This document shows positions 6,931 through 29,610 of a stretch of 35,083 nucleotides of DNA, in pieces. The notes under the pieces were generated by a model that did no database searches, was not told the origin of the DNA, and saw only the letters and a program-made list of their open reading frames with translations. Each line of letters begins with the position of its first letter. Position 1 is the first letter of the stretch. The stretch is from Priapulus caudatus (Eukaryota; Priapulida; Priapulimorpha; Priapulimorphida; Priapulidae), in NCBI RefSeq assembly GCF_000485595.1, contig NW_014577180.1, forward strand, positions 231,391-266,473, written 5' to 3'. The position numbers and the translations under genes are program-made.

Positions 6931-6937
6931 ATAACGC

Positions 6938-6977
6938 CAGGAGCGTATAATGACAAATTTGTCATTATACGCTCCTG
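6938..6977. mobile_element. 40-bp perfect palindrome of the CAGGAG family
   Basis: The element starts CAGGAGCGTATAATGACAAA and its second half is the exact reverse complement. The 7-bp word ATAACGC lies immediately on each side (6931-6937 and 6978-6984) and matches no further, as expected of a target-site duplication. The CAGGAG tip and the palindromic layout are shared with copies at 16144, 19786, 25026 and 29089. Confidence 0.75.
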
Positions 6978-7279
6978 ATAACGCATAAAAAGACGGTCAC
7001 TTGTAATCATTATAGCCACTAATTACAGTGAGGTAGTTTAAGGCTGTAAAAATTAATGGCCAATTAGGCGAAAATAGAAACCAAATGTGAAAAAGATCGA
7101 TGTCCTCCTGGCCTATTGCACACCGGGCTACAGACCCCTACACTGCGATGTAACCGTGTTAGTGATATTTAATGTGACATGTTTTCCGATCTGAATATCC
7201 CAGCTAGAAGTTTCTTCAACAACCGATCTCTTTGTTAGGGCATCGCAGCCAGTATACGTGAATTAGCGAGATATGACGG

Positions 7280-7396
7280 TAACACACAATTTTAACTGGA
7301 GGATATATAACTAGACTAGAACTTTTACAAGTTGACAGTAAGCCAGCTTGTAAAAATTCTAGCCCAGTTTCTTCTTCCAGTTAAAATCATGTGTTA
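7280..7396. repeat. Small imperfect foldback element
   Basis: TAACACACAATTTTAACTGG at the left is mirrored by CCAGTTAAAATCATGTGTTA at the right, and inner segments (CTAGA.TTTTTACAAG and complement) also pair. This gives a hairpin of about 117 bases with mismatches. There is no coding capacity and no clear target duplication. Confidence 0.5.
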
Positions 7397-7399
7397 GCG

Positions 7400-8195
7400 T
7401 GAGATCGAGCACGCTAATCTACCCACACTAGCCGTGATATACTGACAGAGACACGTGTAAATACGCCTACGACATGGGATATCCATCGTTCCGTAACAGC
7501 ATAGCAGAAACATGTATTAGGAAAGGTCACTGCGACAGTACTTTGGCTGTCTCTCTCGCCAAAATAACAGCAGCAGCGAGTTCAACCGAACAGAGCAGCT
7601 CCAAGTGCCGAATTATGGGCTATATCTATAATAGCGTATCTATTAGATTGCCAGCTCCCCGCAGTCGCACAGTGATGCATCACGCCACGCCAATGCCATC
7701 GTGTGAGTGTCCATTTGATGACATCTACTTTTCATTGTTTCCTTCCGCTATGGCGACCGGTCGTGTGCTACACGCGCAGATTGTCATATTTCACTTGGGA
7801 CTCTGAGCTTCACCAGAGCAACGAGATGCAACAGTGAGGCCATCACGGGAAGCCATCGCAAATGGCAACCGATCAATTCCGATAGCAATAAAAACATTTC
7901 CGCGACGCGCGTGTATGTATGCCAGGCTGCAGTGAGCGCTATCCGCCACCATCTGTTTCTTCCCGTCAGATACTGCCGACAGAGATATAAATCGTGACGT
8001 CATCGTCCGCAACACGAGTAGCGCGTCGAAAGTGCTGTCGGATCATATGTGAGATTGCAACAGTACATGTAGAGGCGTGGTATGTGTGTCTCAAAAGCCC
8101 ACGAAAAACACACATTCGTACTGAATTTAACTAAATTATTATAATCAAACCCAACCTAATCTAACTGAACCTTGTCTAATCCAATTTAAACTGAA
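7400..8195. other. Intergenic; one weak exon-like frame on the minus strand
   Basis: A minus-strand frame from about 7974 to a TGA near 7803 follows a pyrimidine-rich stretch ending in CAG, so it could be mistaken for a terminal exon. It has no recognisable domain. Nothing else in the stretch is supported. Confidence 0.2.
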
Positions 8196-8312
8196 CCAAA
8201 TTAAACTAAATTAAACTAAATTAAACTAAACTAAACTAAACTAACCTAAACTAAACTAAACTAAACTAAACTAAACTAAACTAAACTAAACTAAACTAAA
8301 CTAAATTAAACT
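8196..8312. repeat. (TAAAC)n pentanucleotide array
   Basis: About 23 units of AAACT/TAAAC with occasional TTAAA variants. The flanking sequence (8110-8195) looks like decayed copies of the same unit. Confidence 0.9.
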
Positions 8313-8315
8313 ATG

Positions 8316-9770
8316 CGCGAGTAGACCTGGAGCGATGGCAGCCGGGTAGAAAACGCCTTCATATAATTAATCCAACCCTATCTAATCCCAACCCATTATA
8401 TTTCAGCGCGTTGCTTGATGCGTACAAGTTTTAGGTCGAGGTCTGTAATGATTCTCTATGTAAAAAAACTCACTGTCGAAAGGCGAATGCGGAAACACGA
8501 AGAGTTATTAGTTGTTCCGAATGAGTGAATGACGGCAATAAACTAGTCAACGTACCACCGCACCCAGCTAGCGGCGTTAGACGTACACGCACAAAAACAA
8601 AACAAAGCAACAAAACAAAGCAACAAACTAAACATGGCAAGAAAACAGAGGAGATACACGGCTGTGGCTTCAAATAATGTCGGCAAAAGCGATGGTGATA
8701 GCAAAATCACCGCGGTCACTACCGCAAATTAATTCTCATTTTGGATACATTGGTATTTATGGCATTTATTCATAGAGAGAATTGCGGATAATAGCTTTTG
8801 CTGCGTTGCATTTCGGGAAGAAAGCCAATTTGGGGATGTGCAATAGTCAAATGAGAAAAGTTATATAGAACATTCACATAATGGAAAAAGTATTACCGCT
8901 ATAGAATAATAAATAAAATAGGATGAATTCAACCCATTACGTACAGCAAATGGCATACTCGATGAAGTAAAGATAGTAAATGTTATGAGTATATGATGGT
9001 AATTGGAAAGCGTGGAATCCCACGGGATATTTTTGCGGAAAATATGACACTATAACTGCTTGTTAGAAGACCACAAATAACAATAAAAAATTGTGTCCAC
9101 GTAATTATATAACCATATTCTCACCCTCCGCATCCCCTTTCCAGCTTCCCCGCCTCTCCGCTCTCAGAACAGCCTCTGATGCCAATAGGACTGGGTTCTG
9201 TTTCCCGGGTACGGCATAGAGCTACTTCCGCAAAACGTATGGTATTTCTTACTCTAAACCTTTATGATTCCGGGAAGCATAATGTCTTGTTCTGACAATC
9301 GTGTTCACTTACACTTCAAGTAGCGCAAAAGCACAAGTTCAAGAATCAACGAGACTATGGTAGGCACGCGTGACCACCCGGACTCAAACTCGATCCGTTA
9401 CCGTAATAGCGCGTGAAAGGTCACGTGGTGAATATGTGACGAAGACGCTACGGTGACAGTGACGGGGGCACGTACGATGGAAATAGACGCTATCGATCAG
9501 GGATCTGGTGCTATTCCTTTGGTCGCGCGCGTGTACACTATATTGTGCATAATTCCACTGAATGTTGCTCGCCCGCGTTGTAAATTGGAGCGTGCATGCG
9601 TCATGCGCCCGCAGCCTCCGCGTCGACGGAGAGCTATGGATTTGACACGTCGGCACTCCGCGCACGGATGCTCTCTGGCTGCATACAATCATTGCTCATT
9701 GTACGTTGATATTTTAATATAGGTCACGCCTCACACCTCCGAAAAGCGTAGTATATAGATAATTGACCAC
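8316..9770. other. Intergenic, nothing recognised
   Basis: Mixed-composition sequence. Short opposing open frames near 9384-9722 coincide with a CpG-rich patch and have no recognisable domain or splice borders. Confidence 0.4.
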
Positions 9771-9779
9771 GCGGCTTAC

Positions 9780-9880
9780 ATGAACGCACACACGCGCATA
9801 CTACGCACACGCACTCACGGGCGCGCGCGTGCACGTGCGTACACACACGCGCACGCACATGAGCACGAACGCACACACTG
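9780..9880. repeat. Alternating CA/CG tract (possible Z-DNA)
   Basis: Alternating purine-pyrimidine sequence of ACGCACAC and GCGCGCGTGCACGTGCG type, about 100 bases long. Such tracts can adopt left-handed DNA. No gene is involved. Confidence 0.6.
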
Positions 9881-10114
9881 GATACCTACCCATTAACAGA
9901 GACAGCTAGGGTCACTGCGGCTAACCCCCGGGGCAACATGAGACAGAAGCTCGGGAGTTCACGCCATGTGATGGGAAAATCCCCGTGTGCAAAGATGCAG
10001 TCCTATGCGATTCATCCTCATCACACGCCACAAAGGAAAATCTGGGTTCGGCAATGCTATGTTCATTCGTGAATAGCTCTCCGCATATCGACATTTACTA
10101 GGGATGAGAATGAA

Positions 10115-10185
10115 TTTACTTAAAAAGTAATTAGTAAAAAGTAAAAAGTAAAGAGTAAAAGGTAAAAAGTAAAAAGTAAAATTTA
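10115..10185. repeat. (AAAAAGT)n heptamer repeat
   Basis: About nine units of AAAAAGT/TAAAAAG with single-base variants. Confidence 0.8.
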
Positions 10186-10553
10186 TATGAACTTGAGCTA
10201 CGAATGAATTATGGCAAGCCCTATTATGCCATAGATTGATCTGGCTTTAGTATTACGTTACGTTATTATTTTGAAAACATAATAACGGACACTACGGCGA
10301 ACAAGAGAGTTGCTCTGACTCCTGACTGAGCAGAAATCACATGAAAACGTTTCAACCAAAAATCAAATAAACGCTCCTCTGAAAGTCGTAATAGCAAGCC
10401 AAAATAGTTGAATAAAGTAAGCTTAGGTTAGTTAGCTTAGTAACCATACACATATAGTGACTACTGTGGATGTATCATGTATGCATGAGTAAGATGCGCT
10501 CCGAATTTCATGCGAGTCAAACGAAAGAACTAGGGTAGTCAGTCAACACGGCG

Positions 10554-10914
10554 TTAGTTCAATAGGACATATCCCAGTTGCAGTCCCTTAGTATATGTGA
10601 CCTCATCTAAATGTTCGAGTAGTGTGCGACCCATATCTGAACATGAGTGGTACTCGTTAACGGTAATTCTAGCTGGTAAATCTGTACCAGAATGACATAC
10701 TGTCTGCGTGATTTCCAACACTGATCCTCTAGTTAGAATTACAATTTCCACGCTGGTCGCCTAAATAATGATAGTATTTACGCACTAATTCAGAGTAGAT
10801 AGGCACACATTTGCTGTACACGGAACGATATCTACAGAAAATGATACTCCGAGTGGAAAAATCCATGCAATAGCAATGCATGGATTCGACCCACATCTTA
10901 TTGACGTAGTACAC
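10554..10914 (-). pseudogene. Possible Mab-21/cGAS-like nucleotidyltransferase fragment (weak)
   Basis: On the minus strand around 10890-10790, one frame reads a short segment containing FSVDIVPC before a stop. Mab-21-like and cGAS-like nucleotidyltransferases carry a conserved (I/F)SVD(L/I)VP strand holding a catalytic aspartate. Two other open frames of about 60 codons overlap or follow, but none is recognisable. If real, this is a short broken fragment or a single exon. The match is one motif only and could be chance. Confidence 0.18.
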
Positions 10915-10919
10915 ATTTA

Positions 10920-12040
10920 ATGACTACTAAATAGATGATAATACATTCATTTTAATTATCAAGTGAGGACAATTAATTGAAATTTCGCCACACTCACGCT
11001 GTGTGTTTGTGTGTGTAACATCAAAATCAAAATCAATCATCTTTTTGTTTCCGTTCTTCTTGAGGAAGAGACGTTGCCTCGAAAGCTCGCTCTATGCAAT
11101 AAATTTATGGCATCATATTCTATGTTTAGATTTTATCGTTATAAACCTATTGGCGTCCTTGTGCTTTTCATTTTTCTTTAATATATATATATATATTCAT
11201 TTCAGACACTCGCACGTACGCTTCAAAATACATTAACTGCATATAAACTACATTCTTCGCACTTGTGTAGGAAGCGCATTTCGTTGGCTGCTTTCATCAA
11301 GTTATGAGCATGCAATATTTCCTAGAACTAAAATGCATCTCATTGCATCCGGCTATCATAATACTAGAAAATATTTCAAAACTCTCCTTGGAAACTAGGA
11401 AAATTTTCTTTGGAATTTAGAACTGACCCCCATCTTTTCATTGATGATGACATATTTCCCCATGAGCTTCTCTCGCCGATATATGGGCAATGCCTAAGTA
11501 GCCCAAACTGTCTCTTTTGATTTCTTCTAATATTACTGTCAGATAGACGGCCGTACGCATCCACGCGCGCTCGGTCGCAAATGTCATTCTAATGGCTTGA
11601 CGTCGGATGAGCATTAAATGTTCGTCTATACGATTCCTGCACTCACGCAGGCTGGAGCAAATTTAACACATCAAACGAGACGATCTCGACACATCTGTTA
11701 ACTTGATCAGCGCGTTACAACTACAACCGCCAGGGCTTTCTTAATGGAAACTCACTCCTTGTGAAGTAATCGACAAGGAGTTTTGATTCGCGACCAGGCA
11801 AAAGGCCTTGTAGCTTGATTGACGTCAGACCGTGTGGCACTCGCGGCATCACCTTAATCAATGGCAGCACACTTAAGATGTTTACAGGTCTATTATTAGA
11901 ACGCGCTGCCGCGAGGTGTTCTCACGATGGCTTCATTCAGACATCTTGTAATCTTGTTCGTGGAATCCTCACGAGCGCATATATGAGATTGAGACTCTGA
12001 TGCATTGATAGAGGGATCAGTTATATCCGTATAACTCTCG
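10920..12040. other. Region downstream of the RhoGEF-like gene, nothing recognised
   Basis: No exon with both good borders and domain content was found. A minus-strand frame near 11376-11564 is open but unrecognised. The right end of this stretch abuts the presumed poly(A) signal of the minus-strand gene. Confidence 0.4.
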
Positions 12041-12042
12041 AA

Positions 12043-12048
12043 TTTATT
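12043..12048 (-). terminator. Candidate poly(A) signal AATAAA of the RhoGEF-like gene
   Basis: TTTATT on the plus strand reads AATAAA on the minus strand, about 175 bases after the stop codon of the presumed last exon. Position and strand fit a short 3' untranslated region. The hexamer is common in AT-rich DNA, so this is an inference. Confidence 0.35.
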
Positions 12049-12222
12049 CAAAATTACACCGGCCGTAAATTACACGCACGACCAATGCATGCACGTACGC
12101 ACGCCCACGGGAGCGCACGTAGAATCCGTAGCCGTCCGATGCGTTGAGATAAAATGCTCACGCGAAAGACATCTGATATCTATTCTTTACGCGTACGGTC
12201 GTGCTGACAAGTCACACATTTG

Positions 12223-12276
12223 TTAACGCTGCGAGGTGGCGAGCCCCACCGAGATCCCTGCGTACTCCGCCGCCAC
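12223..12276 (-). CDS. Candidate terminal exon of a DH-PH RhoGEF-like gene
   Basis: On the minus strand a pyrimidine-containing acceptor (GCATTCTCAG) is followed by a GC-rich frame of 17 codons, ending in QR and a TAA stop. It starts in phase 0, which is what the preceding exon (14117-14319) leaves. The composition is coding-like compared with the surrounding AT-rich intron, and an AATAAA follows about 175 bases later. The segment would form a short tail after the PH domain. It has no domain of its own, so the link rests on phase, borders and position. Confidence 0.4.
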   Translation of the reverse strand: MAAEYAGISVGLATSQR

Positions 12277-12516
12277 CTGAGAATGCACTGCATGTTGCAT
12301 GCTAGAACGAGATTAATCTCAACACTTTGAACAACAAATCTGTACAGTCCGAGTCTCTACCGCGAAGCGACCGCCGCGTGCATGATTTTTTTTCCTAGGT
12401 CAATCAAGAACATAGAGCTCTAGTGAGCGCTGCTATTGGTTGAGCTTGTTTCGTCGCTCAATGACGTCACAGTGTCGTAATATTCATAGCACATCCAAAA
12501 TTTATAATTAGAATAT

Positions 12517-12586
12517 TCCTCAATAGCCGAGCGAGTACAGCACGCAATTCAAAGCTGAAAGGTCGATGGATCGAATCCCATCCGTT
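12517..12586 (+). ncRNA. tRNA-derived segment with A- and B-box-like motifs
   Basis: TAGCCGAGCGAG (about 12524) resembles an A box (TRGCNNAGYNGG) and GGATCGAATCC (about 12569) resembles a B box (GGTTCGANNCC), at tRNA-like spacing. GATGG and CCATC flank the B box and could form the T stem. A T run follows at once, as in Pol III termination. The anticodon arm is poor, so this is not a functional tRNA gene but a tRNA-derived relic such as a SINE head. Confidence 0.5.
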
Positions 12587-12763
12587 TTTTTAATTATTTT
12601 CCTGTTTTCTGTATTTTTCTATCTTTATCCGTTTAACAATTTTTTCCAATTAACGCAAATATTTACATGATTTATTTACAACAATTTAATAACAACAATT
12701 AATTTTTACAACAATTAAAAATTTAATTTTTTTATATTTTTTTAAATAGGGTTTGGGTTAAGG

Positions 12764-12817
12764 TTAGGGTTAGGGTTAGGGTTAGGGTTAGGGTTAGGGT
12801 TAGGGTTAGGGTTAGGG
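12764..12817 (+). repeat. Interstitial telomeric repeat, nine perfect TTAGGG units
   Basis: Nine uninterrupted TTAGGG copies, preceded by degenerate TTTGGG and TTAAGG units. TTAGGG is the telomere repeat of vertebrates and many invertebrates. Here it sits inside a foldback element and not at a chromosome end. Confidence 0.95.
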
Positions 12818-13139
12818 TCACAATGCAGTGAATGCACCATAAAACAGGAGTTTGAGACACGTGATTTGTATCAACCAATGGCAGCGCTCACTAGAGCCCT
12901 ATGTTCTTGATTGACCTAGGAAAAAAAATCACGCCGGCCACGTAACGGCTTCTCACACAATCTTATCGGCATGCTCTTGTGAAGATAGATGGCGCCAGCG
13001 CACGGCCGCCAGAAACTCAGGAGCTCTAATGGCGCAAGAACAATCGCGGTTGTTGTTCTTCGAGACCGAGCTCGCATAATCGTCATAGGACATAGGCTAA
13101 ACAGAGATGTTCATTATTTTCACGCTGAATAAGCGAGAG

Positions 13140-13322
13140 CCAGAGGCGTGTTCAGGAGAGCGAACGCTCGATGCGCACGCTCGCTGCACGAACGCAGCGC
13201 CTCTTGAACGATACACGAGCGCTCGCTGTGCGCTCGCTATGTCCAAGATGGCGGCCCCCATGGAGGGTTACTCAGCAGATTTTAATTGCGAGATTTTAAT
13301 GTCTTCGAACAAGTACTGTTAA
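13140..13322 (+). other. GCTCGC-rich patch ending in a YY1-like motif and short ORF
   Basis: Repeated GCTCGC/GAACGC words (13150-13240) resemble the core of the 123-bp palindrome downstream. AAGATGGCGGC at 13245-13255 is a textbook YY1 site, of the kind found at animal transcription and translation starts. The ATG inside it opens a 24-codon frame (MAAPMEG...) to TAA at 13320-13322. It could be a promoter and first-exon fragment or part of a repeat; no downstream exon was found. Confidence 0.25.
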
Positions 13323-13463
13323 ACGAATTAGCAAACGAAATTGATACGAATTGAATTTAGAAGTAAATGAATGAATAAAAAATGAAATGAAGTTGAAATA
13401 GATTGCAAATTGAAGTCGAAAATGTTAGATTCCCATTCGCCAGATTGCCCGTCGACATCTTGT

Positions 13464-13586
13464 AAACAACTCGCGCGCTGCGCGAACAGCCTTCTCAGCT
13501 TGCTCGCTCGCGCAGCGTCGTTCAGAAGGCGAGCGCTCGCGAGCGCGCAAGCTGAGAAGGCTGTTCGCGCAGCGCGCGAGTTGTTT
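13464..13586. repeat. 123-bp palindrome with perfect 40-bp arms
   Basis: The left arm, 13464-13503 (starting AAACAACTCGCGCGCTGCG), is the exact reverse complement of 13547-13586, separated by a GC-rich 43-base spacer rich in CGCTCGC. Perfect arms imply recent origin or ongoing homogenisation. No target duplication is visible. It lies in the last intron of the minus-strand gene. Confidence 0.8.
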
Positions 13587-13919
13587 TAGAAGGGCGGATA
13601 TTCTATGTGTTTGGACAGGAAGCCTTGCTGCACTGAGGACTCACCATCGGAAGCCTGCAACCGCACAGTGGGTGACGTCTGCATGTCTGCATTAATTGCT
13701 ACCTGCCAGCCTCGTGACGCGCAGTTGGTAATCTAACATAGCGTTGTCATTATTGCGAATGCAGCTCACACAACTTCGGGCCAGCGAGAAATTGTCATCA
13801 GGTCATCAACCGTGTAAGCGCACGCGCAAAGCCCAGGGAATTCATGCGATCCAGCAAATATGTGAGAATATATTTGCGTTCCAAAAATATGTTTGCGTTC
13901 GAAAAATATTTGAATCCGT

Positions 13920-14000
13920 TAGATACAATAAGGTAACCCAAACACAGGATAGGGTGGTTCCCCCCCCCTATCCTGTGTTTGGGTTACATTATTGTATCTA
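13920..14000. mobile_element. 81-bp palindrome flanked by TGAATCCGT direct repeats
   Basis: TAGATACAATAAGGTAACCC at the left is mirrored at the right (GGGTTACATTATTGTATCTA, one mismatch), and inner AAACACAGGATAGGG pairs with CCTATCCTGTGTTT, around a C-rich loop. The 9-mer TGAATCCGT lies at 13911-13919 and 14002-14010, consistent with a target duplication of 8 to 10 bases depending on where the tips are placed. This suggests a minimal MITE (hAT-like or Mutator-like spacing). It is not a member of the CAGGAG family. Confidence 0.65.
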
Positions 14001-14116
14001 GTGAATCCGTGTGCTGTTATAACCTCGAGAATATAGAGGGTAGCTGTGTTTGCCGTCCCATATATGCGCTCTCGCGAGTGCGTGTTTATCGGTACATCCA
14101 AAAGGTCGTGCCTTAC

Positions 14117-14319
14117 CTCATTTTGGGAGTGTTTCATGAGGTCCCATTGTAGAAACGTAATCAACGTCTTGTAGATGCCACTGTCGTCCAACTTTAACGT
14201 AAGTTGTCTCTCTTTGAACCGCTTGTTACTACCCTTTAGAGATTCCGGTTGGACTCGTATCTTTATCGTCAAGTCTATAAACACAGATGAGACAACACAT
14301 TTGCCATTCTTTAATGGGT
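14117..14319 (-). CDS. RhoGEF-like gene, exon 7 (C-terminal half of PH domain)
   Basis: A 67-codon open exon on the minus strand ending at a strong donor (AATGAG then GTAAGG) in phase 0. The closest acceptor (TTTCCAG, giving a start at 14330) would put a stop in frame after the previous exon. An AG 11 bases further (GATCGAG, start 14319) restores the phase, so I use that; an error or mutation here is possible. The encoded segment alternates hydrophobic and charged residues and ends in a helix-like TLITFLQWDLMKH, which fits the last strands and closing helix of a PH domain, though the family match is weak. Confidence 0.5.
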
Positions 14320-14600
14320 CTCGATCACAGCTGGAAATATAAGTAATGGGATTTTTAAAGTTAAATGTTTATTTAATGCACCTGGTACCGGAGTCTTGAT
14401 AGCTCTCGTCTCCTCTGACGTTAAATGCCATTAATAGACGATATTTACTGCTGATAGCATGCGTCGTGTCGAGGGGTAGCTGTTATTGTTCGCTTCAGTG
14501 ACGCGCAAATTAATTGTAGATATGTTTGCACGACCACTGGTGATAAACGTTCACTACTTTTTCACAAGAAAGGATGAAGGGTATGCAGGTTAATACTTAC

Positions 14601-14718
14601 TCTCCTGTTTGCAAGCACAATGCGTTAGTTTGTCGATCAACAACGGTTCCGCAATGATAGTTATGACGTCATCGATGGTGCAGAATATAATCATGTCACT
14701 GAGTAACACTGCCCAAAC
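14601..14718 (-). CDS. RhoGEF-like gene, exon 6 (PH domain core)
   Basis: Acceptor ACTTTATGCAG and donor GTAAGTATT bound 39 codons plus one base. The protein segment VWAVLLSDMIIFC is a clear PH-domain signature (the 'VFLLSDMLLF' strand seen in Dbl-family exchange factors) and is followed by a second strand and EPLLIDKL, matching the usual 'PIxLxxL' strand. It joins in phase 0 to the exon at 17148-17275, whose end (KVVFKKKLK) supplies the first strand of the same PH domain. PH domains next to DH domains bind phosphoinositides and help position the GTPase. Confidence 0.75.
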
Positions 14719-16136
14719 CTGCATAAAGTGATATATAATACGTCAATGAAAAATCTTAAACTATTAAAATGCTTAATTTTTCCATTAACCCAGAACAAAA
14801 ATTAGTGTAACCCTAGCTCTGTAATTCAAGAGAAAATTTATCTTGTTTATAAATGTGCCATCAACAAATTATGTGAATCTGCGTATCTTAATAACTCACT
14901 CCCGTTTCTCTAGTATAATCAACTTTTTTTCTGAATGGGTATTGCTTCACGTAAAAAAAAACTAGGAGAAATATTACTGGAGGACTATTTGATTTTTCCC
15001 ATCATATAGCATGACGTCTAATTATTACGAATCCCTCTCAAGATTACAGAAACAGCGTGACATTTTTTATTCAGCAATCACGTTTGATTGACGTAAATAT
15101 AATCCCGTTCTGTTTTCTAGAATTTTTAGTTTACAATGTCTAGACCATGACATCTTGTAATTATATTTCACTTCGTTCTGTTGGCTCGGTTTATTATCCT
15201 ATTCTAATTATTTTATCATACTAAATTATTATATACAATAACAATCCCCTTTGATTGAAAATTGTAGAAAAATAAAAGACTAATTTTAACGCTGCGTTAT
15301 ATTTTGTCAACGCTGTAACGTCCCTACACCTCGTCCTGTGACACTAATAAAAAAAGGCATCTATTGTAAACGGGTTAATACCCTGAATAATTTCGCGTAG
15401 ATTCTATTTTGAACTAATAATTTTAATTAACAGTTGTTCAATCGATGCAGGTTTTCAAGGTTGAATATGCGGCCATTGGTTACCACGGCCGTATTAAATA
15501 ATCCTCATTACAAGCGTTATCCGAGAATCTGTCAGCTTCTATCTAGCGGGGAAATGTTTTGCAGAAAACACGCGAGGAAAATTATTTTCACTTTAACATT
15601 TTTGTTCTGCGCTTAATCTTGATTTTATTTATAGTCATCACACATGACGTAGCAATCAGCGTGCGCGTGTAAACGTCGTGAGTACCAGACGTATCGTTCG
15701 TGATGTGCATGTATATATAATGTAGACATCGCGTGAATCCAAAATGATAGGAAAACCACCTGTTTCACTTGGCTAACAAGTAAAAATGCCTACGCAGGCG
15801 GGTACACGTGATTTAAAGTGTAAACAAGATGCTGGTACACGTCGTTACTCAGGAAATTCTGCAGTTGTTCGGAAAAAAATTAATACGCACACGCAAACGC
15901 ATCACGCACGCACGCACGCACGCACACGCACATACACATGAACACACATACACGCACACGCGCGCGTGCATGCGCGCAGGCACGCAGAATTACATTACTG
16001 CTCAGCTAACCAGCAAGAATGCTGTAAACAGGAAGCCGCCTGATAGCCTGTCTCTAACTACACACCATGATCCTGCATGTCGAGATATCTTTTATCGGGT
16101 AGGGGGGCCTTGTTTAAGCACGGGATGATGTGTTAC
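14719..16136. other. Intron 5 of the RhoGEF-like gene, left part
   Basis: AT-rich intronic sequence with no other gene. A CA/CG alternating tract at 15885-15980 (GCACGCACGCAC-type) is the main feature. Confidence 0.5.
15885..15980. repeat. CA/CG alternating microsatellite
   Basis: Units of CACG and CA repeat and end in GCGCGCGTGCATGCGCGC. It is similar in type to the tracts at 9780 and 27181. Confidence 0.75.
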
Positions 16137-16143
16137 ATATTAT

Positions 16144-16181
16144 CAGGAGTAGATAAAGGGAACTCCTTTTATCTACTCCTG
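16144..16181. mobile_element. 38-bp near-perfect palindrome of the CAGGAG family
   Basis: The left arm CAGGAGTAGATAAA is mirrored exactly at the right end; the arms then continue into GG/CC around a short loop with a one-base indel. ATATTAT lies directly on each side (16137-16143 and 16182-16188), a 7-bp direct repeat. The arm sequence is close to that of the copy at 19786. Confidence 0.75.
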
Positions 16182-16188
16182 ATATTAT

Positions 16189-17147: not shown

Positions 17148-17275
17148 CTTTAATTTCTTCTTAAATACAACCTTGCTGTGCAGGTCACACATCGTTGCGT
17201 TTAGAAAGTCTCTATCCTTGCCAGCAGATGGCAGTGGTGAGTTTTTCTGGATCTTCGAACACCACCGCTCCATAG
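17148..17275 (-). CDS. RhoGEF-like gene, exon 5 (DH end, linker, PH start)
   Basis: Acceptor ACTCCTGGCAG and donor GTTTGTTAC bound 128 bases. The first two bases complete a codon begun by exon 4 (phase 1), and the exon ends in phase 0. The start (TMERWCSKIQK) continues the last DH helix, a Ser/Pro-containing linker follows, and MCDLHSKVVFKKKLK reads as the first strand of the PH domain. The frame is open only in the reading required by both neighbours, which supports the splice model. Confidence 0.7.
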
Positions 17276-19666: not shown

Positions 19667-19785
19667 ACCATTATTATTATATATTTATATAAATATATAA
19701 TATGAAAAGCTTTTATATATGTATATATGTATATCATCATGGGTGTTTGTCCTTATTAACCCTTGATGTATATATATATATATAT

Positions 19786-19819
19786 CAGAAGTAGATAATA
19801 GGCCTATTATCTACTTCTG
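19786..19819. mobile_element. 34-bp perfect palindrome, CAGAAG variant of the CAGGAG family
   Basis: The left half CAGAAGTAGATAATAGG is exactly mirrored in the right half. The tips are CAGAAG/CTTCTG in place of CAGGAG/CTCCTG, with the same base changed in both arms. It sits in a TA run, and both flanks begin ATATATAT, so the duplication length cannot be fixed (6 or 8 fits, 7 does not). Confidence 0.65.
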
Positions 19820-19829
19820 ATATATATGA

Positions 19830-20424
19830 ATAAAATACATAAATAGAAACGCGTTTAATTTTCATTTCCATGCATTGCAAATCATCGATGTGTTTCATTC
19901 CGTGCATTTACTGATCTTCTAAGTATTCATCAATCGGATATACTGTAGTTAAGTTCGCTATAATAGAGCGGAGAAATTGGATTTGCCCAAAGTAAGTGGG
20001 AACGTTTAAATTAGATACTGAAAAATCTTTATTTTATTTAAGAATTATTTAATCTTGAATGAATAATTTTATTTAAAGAATCTATTTTATTTGTACATAA
20101 AACCCTGTATATTACGTAGTGAATGTTAATTTTAATTGGGGTATTACTCGCATACGCTCACCAGTGTGCTCATTGTAAGCGATGCACATCTGTCTGCATT
20201 TCAGACATTCTCGTTATATAATTTAATCAGACGTATTTCAAGTCGACAGAATGAATCGCGATTAACACTTTTAAGATATTATTTTATTACTGTGAACGAA
20301 TATTACGACATATTTGCTAAGCTACTCGAGTTTGTTTCCATAAATAGCTCGGCCGAACGTCGCTTAGGTCACCGTGTAGAGAGTGAGCGTGGCGTCGTTA
20401 ATATTACGCGGCTAACCACGTAAC
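19830..20424. other. Intron 2 sequence left of the large transposon
   Basis: AT-rich, no supported gene. A plus-strand frame at 20136-20423 is unrecognised. Confidence 0.4.
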
Positions 20425-20427
20425 CAC

Positions 20428-21099
20428 TAGTCTATCAGCTGGGGGAAGTCCTGAGTGCATTTATATGTCCCCGCAGTTTGACGCTTGATTAATGTATGGG
20501 ACACCCCTGGGAGTAAAAAAAACTTGGGTAGACATTCTAAATCTTGGGAAGGATAGGTGAAATTCAAGATGGCGTTCAAGATGGCCATCAATTCATGTAA
20601 TTGACCATAACTCGCCACCTATTTATGATAGGAGGTTGATTTTGGTGTCTATCCCTATATTTTATGGGTCAGGCTATCCATTAAAACTGATAGCCGTACC
20701 GAAAATGCATTGCATCATTGTTAAATCTAAGATGGCCGCCGAAAGGGACACCGTATCATATAAACTGCTATAACTTCTCGCAGACTTATGATAGGAGGGT
20801 AATTTTCGTGTCTATCCCTATGTTTTAGGGGTCAGGTTATCCACTGAGACTAATAACCAGATTAAAAACGCACTGCATCACCATCAAAGCTAAGATGGCC
20901 ACCAAATATGACCGTCATTTATTGACAACTTTTCACATATCGCTATAATACTAGCAGCATTTACAGTATACATGATATTATTGGTAAGGTAACTTTAATA
21001 CTGATTACTGTGTCCTTAGGATACCAATTGGGTTTCTGCAGTCATTGACTTGTTTGGTCTGGCATTTGCAAAATTCGCAACACTTGGCACCATTTTGTT
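20428..21099 (+). repeat. Left 672-bp terminal inverted repeat
   Basis: It matches 23953-24624 in reverse complement across its whole length. It contains four AAGATGGC words (20566, 20578, 20729, 20892) and two direct subrepeats spaced 163 bases apart (TATGATAGGAGG at 20624 and 20787). Its innermost roughly 95 bases are an antisense copy of the end of the transposon gene. Confidence 0.9.
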
Positions 21100-21108
21100 T
21101 TACACTTC

Positions 21109-24047
21109 ATGCCGTCGTGGAGTGCGTTTAACTCCTTAATCACGAATGAACAAGTACTTGAAAAGATTGTTAGTTTCCTGCCTGTCCTACCCTATCCGGT
21201 AACAGAGTACAGGACAGTGTATACCGCCCTCAAAAACTTTCAGGGTATACTTGGTCAACTTAGGCAGGATAAACTAGCTATTGCATGTGACGAAGGAGTT
21301 TACCACATAGCAAGAGAAATCATGTTGTGGTGCAAAATTTCAAAATATTGTTCTGTGTCTCGGATCGTTCCATATGGTCAAGATTTTCCTTGGGTGTATT
21401 GGGAAATACTTGCGTGATAGTGGAGCAAAAAGTATTTAGATAGAAAACGGTATCTTTGGCCCTAACGTGACCCAGGCAGTCTTGGGTGGCTCGCATTATG
21501 TGGGGTCCTTGGCAGGTATGACATTGCTATCGGAAACAATGGAAAGACTACAGTGGGAAGCATTCTTTGATGAATTGGGCATAGCAAAGTACCAGGGCCC
21601 TCTTGGCATACTGAGGGAAATGAAAGCAAGTGTCTCGGAGAAGGATCGGTTAGAAAGTCAACAGCTGCTTGCCGATTTCGCTACCTCATCGAGTATCCTG
21701 TTTGATGACTTCGAAGAGTTCAAACGACAGAAGAGCGAGAGAAGTGAAACATTTAAATACTAATAATTCTTAACATAATATAACATAATAATACTTAACA
21801 TTCATTGATATGGTCAATTTGGAAAAAGACCTTATGCGAGCTGATCGGGAAGGGAATTGGCAACTACATTTGGAAACGGTTAAGGCTATCCTGCCTTACT
21901 TCGCGACATTTGACTCGACCAACTACCTTCGCTAGAGTTCCCTATACCTGGCAGACATGCAAAGTCTGCCTGAGACGGCACCAGCTATTCATGAAAACTT
22001 TCTGAATGGGGGCTTTGTGATCAAGCGTTCGTCAGCTCCATTCACAGCCGTTGCAATGGACATGTGCTTAGAGCAAACGATAAACCGTTCCTCAAAGAGC
22101 AGTGCCGGTATCATTGGTAGCACCAGGAAGAAGCAATACGTTACGAAATGGAATATCATTCACCATGAAATGATGTCTGTTAACCACCTGTTTAGGGAGA
22201 TAAGCGGAGTCAGAATGAACAATTCAGAGTTAGTTGTCAACCATAAATTCACCACTGGACGTACTGAAGGTGGGGAGCAAAAGGTTGATGACATGATGGC
22301 ATATGTGGTTACCCATGAGAATCCGTTCAAAGTTGTCGAAGATACAGAACAACGGCTGCACAACATCCTGTCGTCTGCCATTATGCCTGATGATGTTCGA
22401 AAGGATCTGGTGACAATCAAGGAATCTGGTGTTGAGAGGTACAATGACTTTCGAAAGAATAGACTAATAGACAAAACGAAACACCTGAGTGATGTTATTC
22501 ATAAACGAAACTTAAAGACGTTTGCAAGCGCTATCGGTCAAAAGAAGAAACCAGCAAATATCAAACACAAACAAGAGAGGAAGGATTTTGGGTCAGCACA
22601 GAAGAAGTTAGATATTGCTCGAGTACGCGGTTGTGATGCCCGATATGTGTTCCAACACGACCTCGTGGTGTCTCCCAGTTACCCCTTCGATGACGATGGG
22701 TTTATGAAGAAACCTGCAAAGTCTGAACTGACAAACGAACTCGAAAAAGTACTGACCAGTCCTGATTACCAAGCTCCGTCTCAGTGGACGGCAATGCCAA
22801 CTGCATACTTTGTAGTTGTAATGGCATATGTGAGAAATATTAGAACGTTGTCATTGAGAACATTTAGAGATTTCTGTGAGGTATTCTTGAAAACCGTCAT
22901 TGGCTTGAGTGTCAATGCCAGCCGTATCGACTTTGTTTTCGATTCCTACATCGAAGGATCTGTGAAGGACAGTGAACGACAACGGAGAGCTGAGACCACC
23001 GATCGAGTACAGTAATCTCAATCCTGAGACTAAACTGCCAAACGAAATGGACAGCTTCTGGGCATTCAGCGGCAATAAGGCTAGACTAGAGACACTGCTG
23101 ACTAGGTTTCTGATTTACCAATGTCCTACACGAGTACCTGGTGTGGAAATTGTAGTTAGCCAAATTGAAGGAAGCACAGTGTCTACGAAGACAGGTCATT
23201 CCATTCAGGAATTACAAACGAATACAATGAACTCAATTCTACTCTGGAAGAAGCGGATGTTCGAATCATGCTCCATGTTTTGCATGCCATCAGGATCGGT
23301 GTCAAGAGGATTGTCGTGCTGTCAAATGACACTGATGTGTTGGTGCTGTTGTTACATTTCAGCCAGATCTTTAAAACGCATGGTATGGTTGAACTGTGGA
23401 TGAGAGCAGGTGTAGGGAACAGTATCAGGTACATCCCAGTACATGTATTGGCAGCAAAGCAGGGGCGTGAATTATGTGATGTACTGCCGGCCGTTCATGC
23501 GTTGACTGGATGTGACATCACAAGCAAATTTGGCACCAAATTGGCAGCGCTCAAAGCGAACCCAATAGCACACCTCAAGGACTTCGGGAAGAACTCGGAC
23601 AATTTGTGTCTAGCTGAATCGGAACTATATCTGGTACAGGTCGTGAAACATGGTGACCATACTATACAAAATATGGATGAATTACGACATAGTCTATACC
23701 ACCACAGCAAGTCTGTGACCGTTCTGGACTTGCCACCGACTAGCCACGCAGCTACAGGACATATTCTCAGAGCCTTTTACTCCACCTATAGTCAGATGAA
23801 CTGTTTGAGTGCCCTTACTCTGGAACCTACAGACTTTGGATTCGAATTATTAGATGGCTTGCTTGTTCCAGGTAGGTTCCATCTACCTTTGCCGGACGAT
23901 GTTGCAGTTGTGTGTTCCTGTGTGAAGTGTTCTACAGCAAGGTGCGTGTGTCAACAAAATGGTGCCAAGTGTTGCGAATTTTGCAAATGCCAGACCGAAC
24001 AAGTCAATGACTGCAGAAACCCAATTGGTATCCTAAGGACACAGTGA
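21109..24047 (+). pseudogene. Broken transposon protein with FEN/XPG-like nuclease region
   Basis: The segments in order are 21109-21417, 21467-21763, 21810-23015 (broken by a TAG at 21933-21935), about 22996-23235, and 23235-24047. Passing along the protein needs four frame changes plus that stop, so it cannot be made as one chain. The family, multicopy and uncharacterised in many animal genomes, is recognised from PSWSAFNSLIT, TVYTAL, VLGGSH, ATFDSTNY and the D...E pattern in AMDMCLEQTIN. The C-terminal part has EEADVR, VLSNDTDVLVLLLH and HALTGCDITS, in the order of acidic motifs of FEN/XPG nucleases (EAEA, DxDxL, GxDY). It ends in a Cys-rich tail (CSCVKC, CVC, CCEFCKC). The N-terminus seems missing: the first ATG lies just after the left inverted repeat. 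Confidence 0.75.
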
Positions 24048-24624
24048 TCAGTATTAAAGTTACCTTACCAATAATATCATGTATACTGTAAATGCTGCTA
24101 GTATTATAGCGATATGTGAAAAGTTGTCAATAAATGACGGTCATATTTGGTGGCCATCTTAGCTTTGATGGTGATGCAGTGCGTTTTTAATCTGGTTATT
24201 AGTCTCAGTGGATAACCTGACCTTTAAAACATAGGGATAGACACGAAAATTACCCTTCTATCATAAGTCTGCGAGAAGTTATAGCAGTTTATATGATACG
24301 GTGTCCCTTTCGGCGGCCATCTTAGATTTAACAATGATGCAATGCATTTTCGGTACGGGTATCAGTTTTTAATGGATAGCCTGACCCATAAAATATAGGG
24401 ATAGACACCAAAATCAACCTCCTATCATAAATAGGTGACGAGTTATGGTCAATTACATGAATTGACGGCCATCTTGAACGCCATCTTGAATTTCACCTAT
24501 CCTTCCCATGATTTAGAATGTCTACCCAAGTTTTTTTACTCCCAGGGGTGTCCTTTACATGAATCAAGCGTCAAACTGCGGTGACGTATAAATGCACACA
24601 GGACTTCCCCCAGCTGATAGACTA
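23953..24624 (-). repeat. Right 672-bp terminal inverted repeat, overlapping the gene end
   Basis: It mirrors 20428-21099. The last 31 or so codons and stop of the transposon gene (to 24047), including much of the Cys-rich tail, lie inside it, so coding sequence and transposon end share the same DNA. Confidence 0.9.
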
Positions 24625-24627
24625 CAC

Positions 24628-24988
24628 GGCGGATAGCCAAAACCGTGCCTGCTGATGCCGAGTGTCTGTCGCGGTGCGCATGTGCATGCGCGTCGCCTCT
24701 CGGCCACACTCGCTGGTCGCCGAGTTATTTTATAGCGCCGCTCGCCTTTATGAAGAATGCCTGTTTACACCGTGCCTGCTGTTAGCGCCGAGATGGGTTT
24801 TTTTCGTGAAATTTTACGATAAATCAGCCCGACGAAATTAACATCTGTTCGCAAGTTTATTGCGTCTAACTTCATTCGTTTATCGGCTCGAGTAGCTTAC
24901 AGCTCATTACTCGCTTACTGACAGCACGTGCACAGACAGCATAACGGGAGTATAGACAGCATTGCGTAACGCACGGCAAGGTTGGTTA
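24628..24988. other. Intron 2 sequence right of the large transposon
   Basis: A CG-rich stretch with ACCGTGCCTGCTG occurring twice (24654 and 24769), then AT-rich sequence. No gene recognised. Confidence 0.4.
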
Positions 24989-24995
24989 TAGATAT

Positions 24996-25129
24996 ATGGA
25001 GTGTATAATAATATACTATTATTATCAGGAGTCTATCAATATTGATAGACTCCTGTTATTATGATTAATATACACTAGTAATAATAATTATAGACTATTG
25101 TTATTATATTCTATTATTATACACTCCTT
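24996..25129. mobile_element. 134-bp AT-rich foldback, outer member of the CAGGAG family
   Basis: GGAGTGTATAATAATA near the left tip is mirrored by TATTATTATACACTCC near the right. TAGATAT lies outside each end (24989-24995 and 25130-25136) if two altered tip bases (AT/TT in place of CA/TG) are counted as part of the element, the same geometry as the other copies. It contains the 30-bp palindrome at 25026 as a nested insertion. Confidence 0.6.
25026..25055. mobile_element. 30-bp perfect palindrome nested in a related element
   Basis: The left half CAGGAGTCTATCAAT is exactly mirrored. TTATTAT flanks it on each side (25019-25025 and 25056-25062). The arms are the same as the outer arms of the copy at 29089. 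It interrupts the left part of the 134-bp element. Confidence 0.8.
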
Positions 25130-25575
25130 TAGATATCATACCCGCCTGGATGAGCCGTCATGTCAATGTATGCTGCGACCATAGTGGTCACGATCATCTA
25201 CGCGCTAGCTTTTCATACATAAAATACAAATATAATAATAAAATTATACTACCTCTAAAAACAGTCTAACCTATCTGTTTCCTGCACCCAGTGTCGCGTG
25301 TGTGTAACGTAAAAACACTATTTAACATGCAAGAGATAAGTTACCCTGTCGAATTGTGATATGCGGCTATTTGTCATAAATTAAGCTGGCAATATAATAT
25401 TCAAGTAATAGTAATATTCATAGAGTATTTCCATATTCCAAATATATTTAAGAGCAGATAAAGTTTATGCATGTGCTCTTTATATACCGCTTCCGATTCG
25501 TCCTTTAAAATCACGTAGGTGTGGATTTTCCCCCTGTTTTCACCTCATCATGGTTATAAAAGACCAATAAGCCAT

Positions 25576-25906
25576 ATCGGAAAGTCCCCGCCGCCATATT
25601 GAGGTCAGATAAGAGGGGTATAAGTTGAAGGGGTATAACATGGGTAGAATAGGACTATTCTAGGTTTTTGATCTATAATTCTCTTCACTAACATCGTACT
25701 TCAATTCACAGGTGCGTTTCTGTTTACATAAACATTTACAATACACAAATGATTGTGGTCATTTGGGATATTTTGCAATGTTTGTGTTAATGCAAAAACT
25801 AAAAACGCACGAGCGTTTACATTAATCATGTACTTTCCTAAGCGCGCCTCGGCCATTTTATACCCCCTTTTTCTGTGACCTAATTAGCACAACTGGACTT
25901 TCCGAT
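25576..25906. mobile_element. Possible MITE with ATCGGAAAGTCC ends
   Basis: ATCGGAAAGTCC at the left and GGACTTTCCGAT at the right are exact inverted tips. Inner segments (GGTCAGATAAGAGGGGTATAA and a mirrored TTATACCCCC...TGTGACC) also pair approximately. It is about 331 bases, has no gene, and shows no obvious target duplication. Confidence 0.5.
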
Positions 25907-26307
25907 CTCACATATTAGATTCCTGTCCAATTAGCTTAATACGTGTTTATCATTAATCTTCGCACACACATACCATAGCAATGCCCGAACTGAAAATCCT
26001 TTATCAGATAAGAACCAATAAAGACAATACTAAAATAACAATGCTTAAACTGGTTAACTAAACATAATCGGTAACTATTTTTGGTAAACATCGGTTTGCG
26101 TAGCGCGTGACCATGGTCGTATATGATATACGAACCGTCGTCAGCTTTATTATGATAGTTATATCGTTATTATGAAAAGCATTACGGTACACTGAATCAG
26201 CAGGGCCATTGACACTAGCTTGTTTACGCGCATGTTCATCACGATTATTACCACCGACAAATTGCGATTACCGCTCCGCCCATGTCACGAGTAATGAATG
26301 AGCTTAC

Positions 26308-26427
26308 CCTAGCCAGGTAAATGTCACCCACGGCAGGGACGACGTAGGTTGTACTCTGCTTGTCACCGGCACACGCGACCCGAGCCTCGTCGAGTCCCGC
26401 CAGGTGGCGCTCGGAGTAGCGCAACAC
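26308..26427 (-). CDS. RhoGEF-like gene, exon 2 (DH domain)
   Basis: The acceptor ends GTTGACACAG and the donor is GTAAGCTC, bounding exactly 40 codons in phase 0. The segment starts VLRYSERHLAGLDEAR and ends VGDIYLAR. In DH domains the first helix ends 'LFxNIxEI' and continues 'xxxHxxFLxxL', which fits exon 1 (ALFKNVIE) joined to this exon; 'GDIYL' matches the 'GDxFL' motif before the next helix. A CTCF-like word (CGCCAGGTGGCGCTC) also occurs within this exon, where coding constraint may explain it. Confidence 0.75.
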
Positions 26428-27180
26428 CTGTGTCAACAACATCAGCGCGAAAGAAGATCACATATACGGAGGCATGTAGTCTGCGCATTAGCAGTGAAGG
26501 CCGACGTATAGGTAACTGCTTGATCGATCCACGAGACAACGTCACGATAAGTAAGCCGCGGTTAGAGTATCGTAATGAGGACGCGCGTCCTCACAGAATG
26601 TCACCGAGTCGCCCTTTATTTCGTCGGAATGATTACACTCGTTTATAGATGCCAGCATTTCTCCCCGTTCATAGATGAGCATGGGATCATTCTTCGCATT
26701 CGCTCCATAATGAATATACCCGTCATTACATTTCATCTCAATCTGTGTTTGCGCCATTTTCTCGATCTGTATTTTCTGCGTTTGGATGTGACATCTAGAT
26801 GTACAGTGAGTAGCTTACTACGATTCTTACACATCTACAGTGAGCGGCCAGGATGTGTTTTTATTAGGCGAAGCAGTTGCTAACGGCGCAAGAAGAACAC
26901 GATGAATTCGCTACAACATTCAAGATGTTTTCTATAGATGTCTCAAAAAGCTCTCATCCGCTCTCTGCGCCGTTGTATGCATCTCCTGTAATTGGGCTTC
27001 ACATCTGCAGTTAGTCAGAGTTCCGTTGAATCCGCGAGCAGACGGAGGCTCCGGGCTACCGACAGTCATGCTGCACGGAAGTAACAGTATTTTATCTGAT
27101 CGCTGCTTGGAAACAGGCATCGCACTCGCGCGCTCTACAAATCCGTTAGCTGCGACGCAAACGATCCGGGCGCCGGAATG

Positions 27181-27198
27181 CACACACGCGCGCACGCA

Positions 27199-27251
<53 letters not shown>

Positions 27252-27262
27252 GCGCGCGCGCA
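27181..27262. repeat. (ACGC)n(AC)n(GC)n compound microsatellite
   Basis: GCAC units, then a pure AC run, then a GC run, about 80 bases in all. It is strongly alternating purine-pyrimidine and a candidate for Z-DNA. Overlapping Thr/His- and Cys/Val-rich frames are artefacts. Confidence 0.9.
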
Positions 27263-27355
27263 ATTATATATACACACGCACACCAGGGGCGTAGCTACCA
27301 TAATGCAGATACGCAGTTGCGTACACATCATTTCACCAAACTTTTTTTTTATTGC

Positions 27356-27393
<38 letters not shown>

Positions 27394-27894
27394 TCAGTCA
27401 GTCAACCGTTATATTTTATTTAGCGTTTAGCGTGAATGTATGTTTCATTAATTTTAAACGAATTTTTCACACACTGTCATCCAGCGTAGACAGGTCCTCG
27501 TCTCGACATATTTCTATTTAGAAATCTCTACTCACAAGCTTACTACATCAGTGGCGGATTTAGGGGGGGGGGTGGATTGGGTGGCTAGCTACCCCCCTCT
27601 GTTGGACTAACAATATTTTTACATAGTCGCGCGGCTGTACAAAACGTCACCTGATGCATAGGTTAAATTATATAATTGAGTGGCAAAGCAGGTTACAACC
27701 CTTTTTCAGCTTTTTCACAATCCCAAGAAATAGAGTTTTGCTGTCGCCCTCATCCCAGCGGTGGTCACCCCTACACATTAAATAATGAACGCGACTTAAA
27801 CAATGCCGTGATGTAATGTGATGTGCAATGAGTGATGTGTGTGTTTATTGTTTAAGCACACACACGCGCCCACGCGCACCCGCACACCCATACG

Positions 27895-27960
27895 ATCGCT
27901 CGCAAGCACGCACGCACGCACGCACACAGAGAGGGAGAGAGAGAAAGAGAGAGAGAGTTT
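27895..27960. repeat. GCAC and GA microsatellite
   Basis: CGCACGCACGCA units followed by an interrupted GAGAGAGA run inside the hAT-like element. Confidence 0.75.
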
Positions 27961-28067
27961 AAGAATGTGCGTTAGTTCAACATGTCTTAATAATAAAACG
28001 AAAATTACATGATTAGTTATAGTGATCTTTAGTGATCACATCTTGCTGCTCATGAAGAGAATAGTTC

Positions 28068-28194
28068 TACTAAAAACATAATTGTCGTAGTCAGAATGAA
28101 GGCTGTACATTTACTCAAAGGGGCCTCAAATACCATCTCCTGCGATCTACATTTTCAAAATTTTCTGGGGAAGGAACCCCAGACCCCCCGTCTG
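28068..28194 (+). repeat. Module shared with 19317-19442
   Basis: About 125 bases align in direct orientation with 19317-19442, sharing words such as AATTGTCGTAGTCAGAATGA and CCTGCGATCTACATTT, with differences in between. Each copy lies inside an hAT-like element. Confidence 0.8.
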
Positions 28195-28475
28195 TGTACG
28201 TACACCTCCATTTCACCCTAGCTACGCCCCTGCACACCCATGCATCCACGCACCAGTGCGACGTCAATGCAATCCTTCGCGTGTATTACTTTGCTGTGAA
28301 GCATTAATTCATTACATGACAGGCTCATGCACTAACAGTCTCGCGCCCTAATAACGCATACCGACACTATATCTCATGGGAATTTTTAACCGTTTTTTTA
28401 CGTGGAGGGGGGGGGGTTCATTTGTTGTTGATTCTACTTCCAGGATCCTCGACAATTATATATATATATATATAT

Positions 28476-28562
28476 CAGGAGTGAATAATAAGAGATCTTA
28501 GAATAGATAATATTAGATACATTTTTATAATAATTTTAGATATTATAATCTATTATTATTCA
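28476..28562. mobile_element. Degenerate member of the CAGGAG family
   Basis: It starts CAGGAGTGAATAATAAGAG in a TA run and ends near CTATTATTATTCA, which mirrors the left arm but lacks the final CTCCTG. The right tip appears lost, so no duplication can be tested. Confidence 0.45.
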
Positions 28563-28647
28563 TTACATAATTTATATTAATATTTCTATACATCGGTTTC
28601 TACTCTACCATACGGTCTATACACGGTGTTCGTAATGCATCACGTAC

Positions 28648-28821
28648 CTCTATAACGTTCTTGAAGAGAGCCGTGTACTCGTCGACGGACAGTAGAGGGC
28701 AGCACTCGAGTGGCGTGACGCACCTCTTCAGTGTGGCGGTGACGGCGGTGACGTAGACTTGCTCGCATGCAACCAGCTCGCCGATACGTTCCTGACGCAC
28801 TTGCTCAGCCATGTCGAGACC
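28648..28821 (-). CDS. RhoGEF-like gene, first visible exon (start of DH domain)
   Basis: The donor GTACGTGATG follows ATAGAG in phase 0. The segment RQERIGELVACEQVYV is the first conserved region of DH domains (typically 'RxxVIxELlxTExxYV'), followed by CPLLSVDEYTALFKNVIE, matching 'LSxxExxxIFxNI'. The left limit is uncertain: an acceptor-like TGCACTGCAG places the exon start at 28821, giving exactly 58 codons; an in-frame ATG in good context (GACATGG) lies three codons in, and the frame stays open further upstream. The exon may be an internal one or hold the start codon. An RhoGEF loads GTP onto Rho-family GTPases at membranes. Confidence 0.75.
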
Positions 28822-29088
28822 CTGCAGTGCACGCAACAGCACGTACGGGTACGGAACAGCCTGCGCCAGCACACAACGAACGATTGCAACGCGTAACGAG
28901 GCATTGTAATACGTACCGACGGGTTTTAACACGTATATCGGGGCAGTACTACACGTAAGGCCATAATAAAAAAATATTGTTTGTTTGCCCTCACCCGACC
29001 GACCTGCCAAAATGGGGCCGACTCAAAAAAAATTATGGATTTTCCCCATTTTTTTAACAAATTGTATCACTGTAGGCCTACATTATAT

Positions 29089-29165
29089 CAGGAGTCTATC
29101 AATATCGGAAAAAATATCAAAATATCAAAATATCAAAATCAGGAGTCTATATTGATAGACTCCTG
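29089..29165. mobile_element. 77-bp rearranged copy of the CAGGAG family
   Basis: It starts CAGGAGTCTATCAATAT, then has a filler rich in AATATCAA units, then a second CAGGAGTCTAT, and ends ATTGATAGACTCCTG. The outer arms equal those of the 30-bp palindrome at 25026. ATTATAT flanks it exactly on both sides (29082-29088 and 29166-29172). Confidence 0.75.
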
Positions 29166-29610
29166 ATTATATAAATCTGTAGGCAATACATTAAATATAC
29201 CGAGCAAAACAAACATTCAACATAAAAGGTATCTCCACACAAGCACACCCGAGCATGTAGACACCATGCTGAATTTGTAAAAAGACCTCCCTCAAAAAAG
29301 CTTATACCTACCTACCCAAACTTTTCAGCCTGGGTCGGGTGAGGGCAAACAAAGATTTTTCTAATTGTGGCCTAACCGACCGTCGTAACACGTAGCGAAG
29401 CATCGCTACACGTATCGGCACGGCGTAACACGCAACGGTCAGGTGTAACACGTAAGTACATTGTGTCGCTCGAAATAACGGGTAAATAATGCCTTGTAAC
29501 AGTGTGCATGTCGTCAGCATAACAGTGCGCATGACCTTTACACACTGTGTAATAGCTCCGTAATGGCATGCTATATTATAGTATCAACCGTTTAACAATA
29601 GAGCTCAGGG

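Follow-up and report, generated by a model that had tools for sequence, protein, structure and literature searches.

Short palindromes with target duplications in the genome of Priapulus caudatus: probable excision scars of a P-element-like transposon

Excision footprints of P elements and the palindromes of Priapulus

P transposase makes staggered cuts, with the cut in the second strand lying 17 nt within the element, and long 3' tails are left (PMC7776569). In Drosophila, the junctions left by excision of P{wa} consist of a target copy, one transposon end retained over at most 17 nt (the length of the overhang), an overlap or a copied filler, the other end, and the second target copy (PMC2895639), and these footprints are nearly palindromic because the ends are inverted repeats. 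The same order of parts is observed in a group of tiny palindromes with CAGGAG...CTCCTG tips in a 35,083-bp stretch of Priapulus caudatus DNA (contig NW_014577180.1, positions 231,391 to 266,473; the whole stretch is referred to below as the window), which are very probably the repair scars of an excised P-element-like transposon rather than very small mobile elements. With ~20 nt in place of 17 nt, and 7 (or 8) bp in place of 8 bp, the fly P junction table describes these palindromes. The P{wa} footprints have 17-nt tails and 8-bp targets and derive from one laboratory site, and losses of most of the ends through long microhomologies are frequent among them (PMC2895639), whereas the palindromes described here have a limit of ~20 nt, duplications of 7 (8) bp and several arm subfamilies, and are spread over thousands of natural genomic sites.

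Two further members of the P superfamily offer a comparison. Galileo shares the 7- or 8-bp duplications, the AT-rich palindromic target and the long inverted termini (PMC4168063); its target GTATTAC has a core similar to that of ATAWTAT, the target here, whereas the outer bases differ, and the likeness concerns target and duplication only. The word "footprint" is absent from the main text of the Galileo paper. Pdre2, the element of zebrafish THAP9, has ends that likewise begin with CA and finish with TG, but its inverted repeats are 13 bp long (CATACCTGTCAAC) and its duplication is 8 bp (PMC10983969). Transposases of the same domain family are present in the Priapulus genome.

Target duplications, arms and longer elements

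The palindromes that an earlier note reported in this stretch lie at the positions first given, and a script confirmed the five exact 7-bp direct repeats. A scan of the window in which 10-nt inverted tips (with one mismatch allowed and a span of at most 200 bp) had to be flanked by a 7-bp repeat of whatever sequence returned six places, namely these five palindromes and an unrelated one at 2584, compared with none in 20 Markov shuffles. The pattern CAGGAGN{0,30}CTCCTG occurs four times in the window against an expectation of 0.03. In the genome (385 Mb, 2952 contigs), it is found at 2224 places versus 123 for the same pattern reversed, and CAGGAGN{31,60}CTCCTG at 1701 versus 108, such that ~3,700 palindrome places exceed the background when the control is subtracted from both spacing classes. 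Chance palindromes are ruled out by the window expectation, the shuffles and the reversed controls. The palindromes form several subfamilies with unlike arms after the common tip (e.g., TAGATAATAGGGAA, TAAGATAATATAGG, TTAATAATGACAAA, TTAATAAAGACAAA, CGTATAATGACAAA and TCTATCAATA). Matches foreign to the family also exist, as in a 26-bp minisatellite-like array of CAGGAGCCTCGTAGCAGCCGACCAAT units at locus L015 that yields CAGGAG...CTCCTG hits.

An exact 7-bp repeat borders 46 of 76 flanked copies, compared with 1.9% when left and right flanks are taken from different copies; this genome-wide excess, in a comparison that the earlier note had proposed, bears out the view that a DNA transposon inserted at these sites and duplicated 7 bp of target. 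In a second count that admitted 7 or 8 bp, 56 of 78 copies are exact (47 with 7 bp and 9 with 8 bp), 15 are near and 7 are without a repeat; five of the 78 belong to the window, outside of which 51 of 73 are exact, and two constitute one tandem duplication (L039). For these counts, the copies were chosen by pattern, and the span with the better repeat was retained among overlapping candidates. Copies of the target are therefore found on both sides of the joined ends, as an excision footprint requires (56/78). The duplicated 7-bp target is ATAWTAT, with T at the second base in 46/46 exact cases and a C preceding the target in 21 of the 46. Duplications of 8 bp, the length of which is indeterminate in several copies within TA runs, occur in 7/20 TAGATAA copies versus 2/58 others, and because several 8-bp cases lie in such runs, this subfamily difference is not pressed.

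The tips are not confined to tiny palindromes. Two single tips in fetched stretches, which were met without any motif pattern, continue into other sequence, and one of them forms the left end of a foldback element of 775 bp, the target copies of which read ATTTCAT. A pattern for full-length ends, CAGGAGTN{11,16}GGAGTRTGACA, was built from both ends and matches 399 ends in the genome (197 forward and 202 reverse; control 0). Among the matches listed, 21 facing pairs of ends within 2 kb were recognised by eye, 19 of which span 609-842 bp, and their CAGGAG...CTCCTG ends form CA...TG in terminal inverted repeats. The borders of ten of the 21 pairs were fetched and show exact 7-bp repeats in four, exact 8-bp repeats in five (two in TA runs) and repeats of only 6 bp in one.

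A comparison of the tiny copies with these longer ends reveals that the retained arms, where assignable, are capped near 20 nt. Arms and junctions were analysed in 88 copies of up to 72 bp total length, comprising three from the window and 85 plus-strand genome places (100 plus-strand matches were listed, and 15 without arms were dropped). When the 176 arms were compared with 11 full-length end forms, 82 could be assigned to a form; counted cumulatively, the match extends to nt 20 in 31 arms, to nt 21 in 8, to nt 22 in one and beyond in none, with end forms taken from a pattern that demands GGAGTRTGACA, although two such ends had been met earlier without it. Because the matches never pass nt 22, no assigned arm properly enters GGAGTRTGACA; with total lengths of up to 72 bp, the sample left room for arms of 21-36 nt. 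A cap at a fixed stagger length is what a P-type excision footprint requires (82/176 arms assignable). An earlier count against 20-nt references, into which the limit was built, had 71 of 130 assignable arms reaching the full 20 nt.

The junctions between the arms are varied. Of the 88 copies, 61 are classifiable: the ends overlap in 8 and are joined bluntly in 10, and they are separated by a filler of 1-5 nt in 16 and by a longer one (more than 5 nt) in 27. All 27 longer fillers differ from each other, 79 of the 88 copies are distinct, and the recurrent exact sequences are four short products only. The longest match between filler and arm averages 6.7 nt versus 4.5 nt in shuffled fillers (27 fillers); taken one by one, 9 of them reach p ≤ 0.05. 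Overlap or arm-like filler at the junction is what end joining in an excision footprint requires. The filler at C5:596762 (L109) contains a copy of 18 nt of the tip plus four bases from the target beside it, and the filler of the window copy at 29089 also carries local target bases, as would be expected of fillers made on site and not of a unit that came ready-made.

CA...TG ends within inverted repeats, which fly P and Pdre2 have, are the rule for the P superfamily. Its 7-8 bp duplication and palindromic target preference are present here as well (56/78 tiny copies and 9/10 full-length pairs). PF21787, the P/THAP9-type RNase H family, has 64 matches in the genome. An element of 7126 bp between the same tips (C79:4452-11577), read at both borders and over 4.0 kb of its interior, holds a decayed coding region with a longest open frame of 198 aa in that 4.0 kb. 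A 69-aa piece of it has 16 genome matches including itself, and 9 of the 15 others coincide with PF21787 places. P-transposase relatives of the piece lie at C467:174099, C2843:4447, C660:42069, C831:135816 and C1475:58063. The feature that defines the superfamily is a transposase with a split RNase H and a GTP-binding insertion between the tips; no intact transposase could be placed inside CAGGAG...CTCCTG tips. The parents belong to an undescribed lineage, probably of the P superfamily, a likely membership that rests on one decayed copy.

An 827-aa open frame at L111:1737-4217 (minus strand, C1414) encodes a P-type transposase, the domains of which are HTH, RNase H, GTP-binding and THAP9 C-terminal. 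It was considered as the parent and rejected, as the 5.9-kb stretch around it contains no CAGGAG tips.

Probable excision scars and competing explanations

We infer the following course of events. The element would insert in the AT-rich, near-palindromic target ATAWTAT, with a duplication of 7 and sometimes 8 bp; when the element is excised, its transposase may cut one strand at the element border and the other ~20 nt inside, so that each side of the gap would keep a target copy and a 3' tail of ~20 nt of transposon end. End joining could then unite the tails, either bluntly after fill-in, over short self-complementary stretches, or across a copied filler, as is known from polymerase-theta end joining. 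Since the two tails are the same sequence in opposite orientation, their joining yields a near-perfect palindrome between two target copies. The staggered cut, its 3' polarity, the repair enzyme and the immobility of the scars belong to the proposed part of this account. The observed part comprises the duplications, the tips common to longer elements, the ~20-nt limit, the varied arm-like fillers and the P-like coding remnant. If the palindromes remain after excision, no enzyme is needed to move a unit of 30-40 bp, the difficulty raised in the earlier note; its tiny mobile units are not supported, as elements of 775 bp and 7126 bp have these tips and the palindromes look like excision remains.

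A number of results weigh against an origin by excision. The sole coding link is the decayed element at C79:4452-11577; its pieces match no P family in Pfam, the 69-aa piece having no Pfam match at all, the element is absent from the 64 PF21787 places, and a BLAST search of the intact P transposase at L111 against it returned nothing significant. The L111 transposase itself is without CAGGAG tips in the 5.9 kb around it. No full-length parent was found for the window arms CGTATAATGACA (6938) and TCTATCAATA (25026 and 29089), as all 23 ends found are of the TGTATAATAGG type; a looser search for parents of these two arms gave 31 ends, with the matched strings read for four only. An assignable full-length end is lacking for 94 of the 176 arms, and 18 of the 27 fillers singly fail to reach p 0.05. 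Some simple palindromes recur identically at different sites (a 30-bp one in 5/88 copies and a 40-bp one in 4/88). The earlier note expected empty sites to carry a single 7-mer, and this was not cleanly borne out: the only unoccupied site found, a paralogous one at L063, has no palindrome, but its centre exceeds a single-copy target by 7 bp. As only part of the sample is covered by the coding link and by assignable arms, excision scars are rated slightly less probable, and mobile units slightly more so, than they would be otherwise.

The identical 30- and 40-bp palindromes, together with the exact target duplications, are what would be expected if the palindromes were ultra-short mobile elements, i.e., miniature inverted-repeat transposable elements (MITEs) made of tips only, in which two joined ends of 15-20 nt are moved by the transposase of the longer elements. 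This is improbable: two of the five 30-bp occurrences lie in one tandem duplication, the recurrent sequences are the simple products of identical ends, 79 of the 88 copies are distinct, and all 27 fillers of more than 5 nt differ. Moreover, two fillers contain their own local target bases, which is not expected of a moved unit, no assignable arm reaches the subterminal GGAGTRTGACA of the full-length ends, and binding by P transposase involves internal sites at both ends (PMC7776569). A related proposal, to which a similarly small chance is given, is that joined stubs of ~20 nt (30-40 bp, without the subterminal motif) re-excise and re-insert, such that scars become exceptionally small transposons; re-mobilisation of this kind would explain the identical palindromes at different sites.

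It is very unlikely that ordinary MITEs were shortened in place, through abortive gap repair or central deletion of an unstable palindrome, without cutting by a transposase. Templated fillers also arise in these processes, most of the parents found are 609-842 bp long, and the one that was read is a foldback, a form expected to be unstable; however, such breaks should stop at many distances, whereas the assignable arms end at 20-22 nt across unlike subfamilies, in a comparison that covers total lengths up to 72 bp. An assignment to Dada or hAT elements, as suggested by the duplication length or the CAG...CTG tips, has next to no probability. Tips of the CAG...CTG form are often seen in hAT elements, but none of 30 fetched loci (of 144 hAT matches) has the present tips within ~1.5 kb, a flank that is short for a whole element. 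Dada, which the earlier note offered as a possible match, resembles the palindromes in duplicating 6-7 bp, but it has no terminal inverted repeats and inserts in snRNA and tRNA genes (PMC3706591). It is rejected as the parent because inverted tips exist here and the duplicated targets are AT-rich and varied.

The tandem paralogues L076 and L077 (C3:267220 and C3:273525), which have different centres, were considered as two excisions of one insertion and set aside, as their flanks differ by many small indels.

If the palindromes are excision scars, their ~3,700 occurrences in one genome amount to a record of departed transposons and outnumber the full-length ends found for the searched lineage (399) about ninefold. 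Sequence alone would then tell the cut site of an unstudied transposase (~20 nt inside, compared with 17 nt in the fly P element), the frequency of departures and the way in which this germ line repairs breaks. It would also caution against the annotation of very short palindromes with target duplications as MITEs. A literature search, with subscription journals mostly outside its reach, found no description of a genome-wide set of P-type scars.

Individual palindromes and other features of the window

The palindromes of the window are given without strand unless stated. The first (6931-6984) is a 40-bp unit (6938-6977) consisting of CAGGAGCGTATAATGACAAA and its own inverse between target copies ATAACGC at 6931-6937 and 6978-6984; its arm is found with other centres elsewhere, for example at C4:501544 and C3:544548. 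The second (16137-16188) is an imperfect 38-bp palindrome (16144-16181) with arm CAGGAGTAGATAAAGGGAA and target ATATTAT, and this arm is present in a full-length end at C52:444806. The third (19778-19827), a CAGAAG variant, is a perfect palindrome of 17+17 nt (19786-19819) bordered by the 8-bp repeat ATATATAT, a duplication that constitutes weak evidence because the repeat sits in a TA run.

An older scar (24989-25136) has arms GTGTATAATAATA, target TAGATAT and a long AT-rich centre (24996-25129) that was later interrupted by the fifth palindrome (25019-25062), in which CAGGAGTCTATCAAT|ATTGATAGACTCCTG (25026-25055) is flanked by TTATTAT. On the excision reading, this nested pair records, in all likelihood, a later insertion and excision inside the older scar. 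The 30-bp product of the fifth palindrome has five further occurrences among the 88 analysed copies (window copy excluded), and the tandem duplication at L039 accounts for two of these five. A probable sixth scar (28476-28570, plus strand) is decayed, with left arm CAGGAGTGAATAATAA, a long AT-rich centre, an eroded right tip and a right border that is not fixed. The tips of the copy at 24996 have decayed to ATGGAG...CTCCTT, and the copy at 28476 retains its left tip only.

In the seventh palindrome (29082-29172), a filler of ~43 nt lies between 17-nt arms (29089-29165), with target ATTATAT. Within the filler, ATATCAAA is repeated and the first 11 nt of the tip recur, preceded by two local target bases. 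The stretch 29140-29165 does not count as a copy of its own, as the ATTATAT target encloses 29089-29165 as one unit. The palindrome is hosted by a repeat with inverted termini (~28970-29370), another copy of which, without a scar, lies at L063:2362-2564.

Several other features are present in the window. An element at 20428-24624 has long inverted termini starting with TAGTCTATCAGCTGGGGGAAGTCCTG and, by eye, CAC at both borders, a possible 3-bp duplication; its open reading frames (ORFs) of 359 and 292 aa match no Pfam family, and a Pfam scan of four window ORFs gave no match. The region 30126-35083 resembles a retrotransposon, in which ~350 bp near 30130 are directly repeated from ~34735 to the window end (by eye) and minus-strand ORFs of 448 and 508 aa lie between the direct repeats. 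By eye, an internal run of telomere-like GGGTTA repeats occupies ~12757-12818, and inverted repeats of AAATCCGGTATTT-like units are found at 2370-2850.

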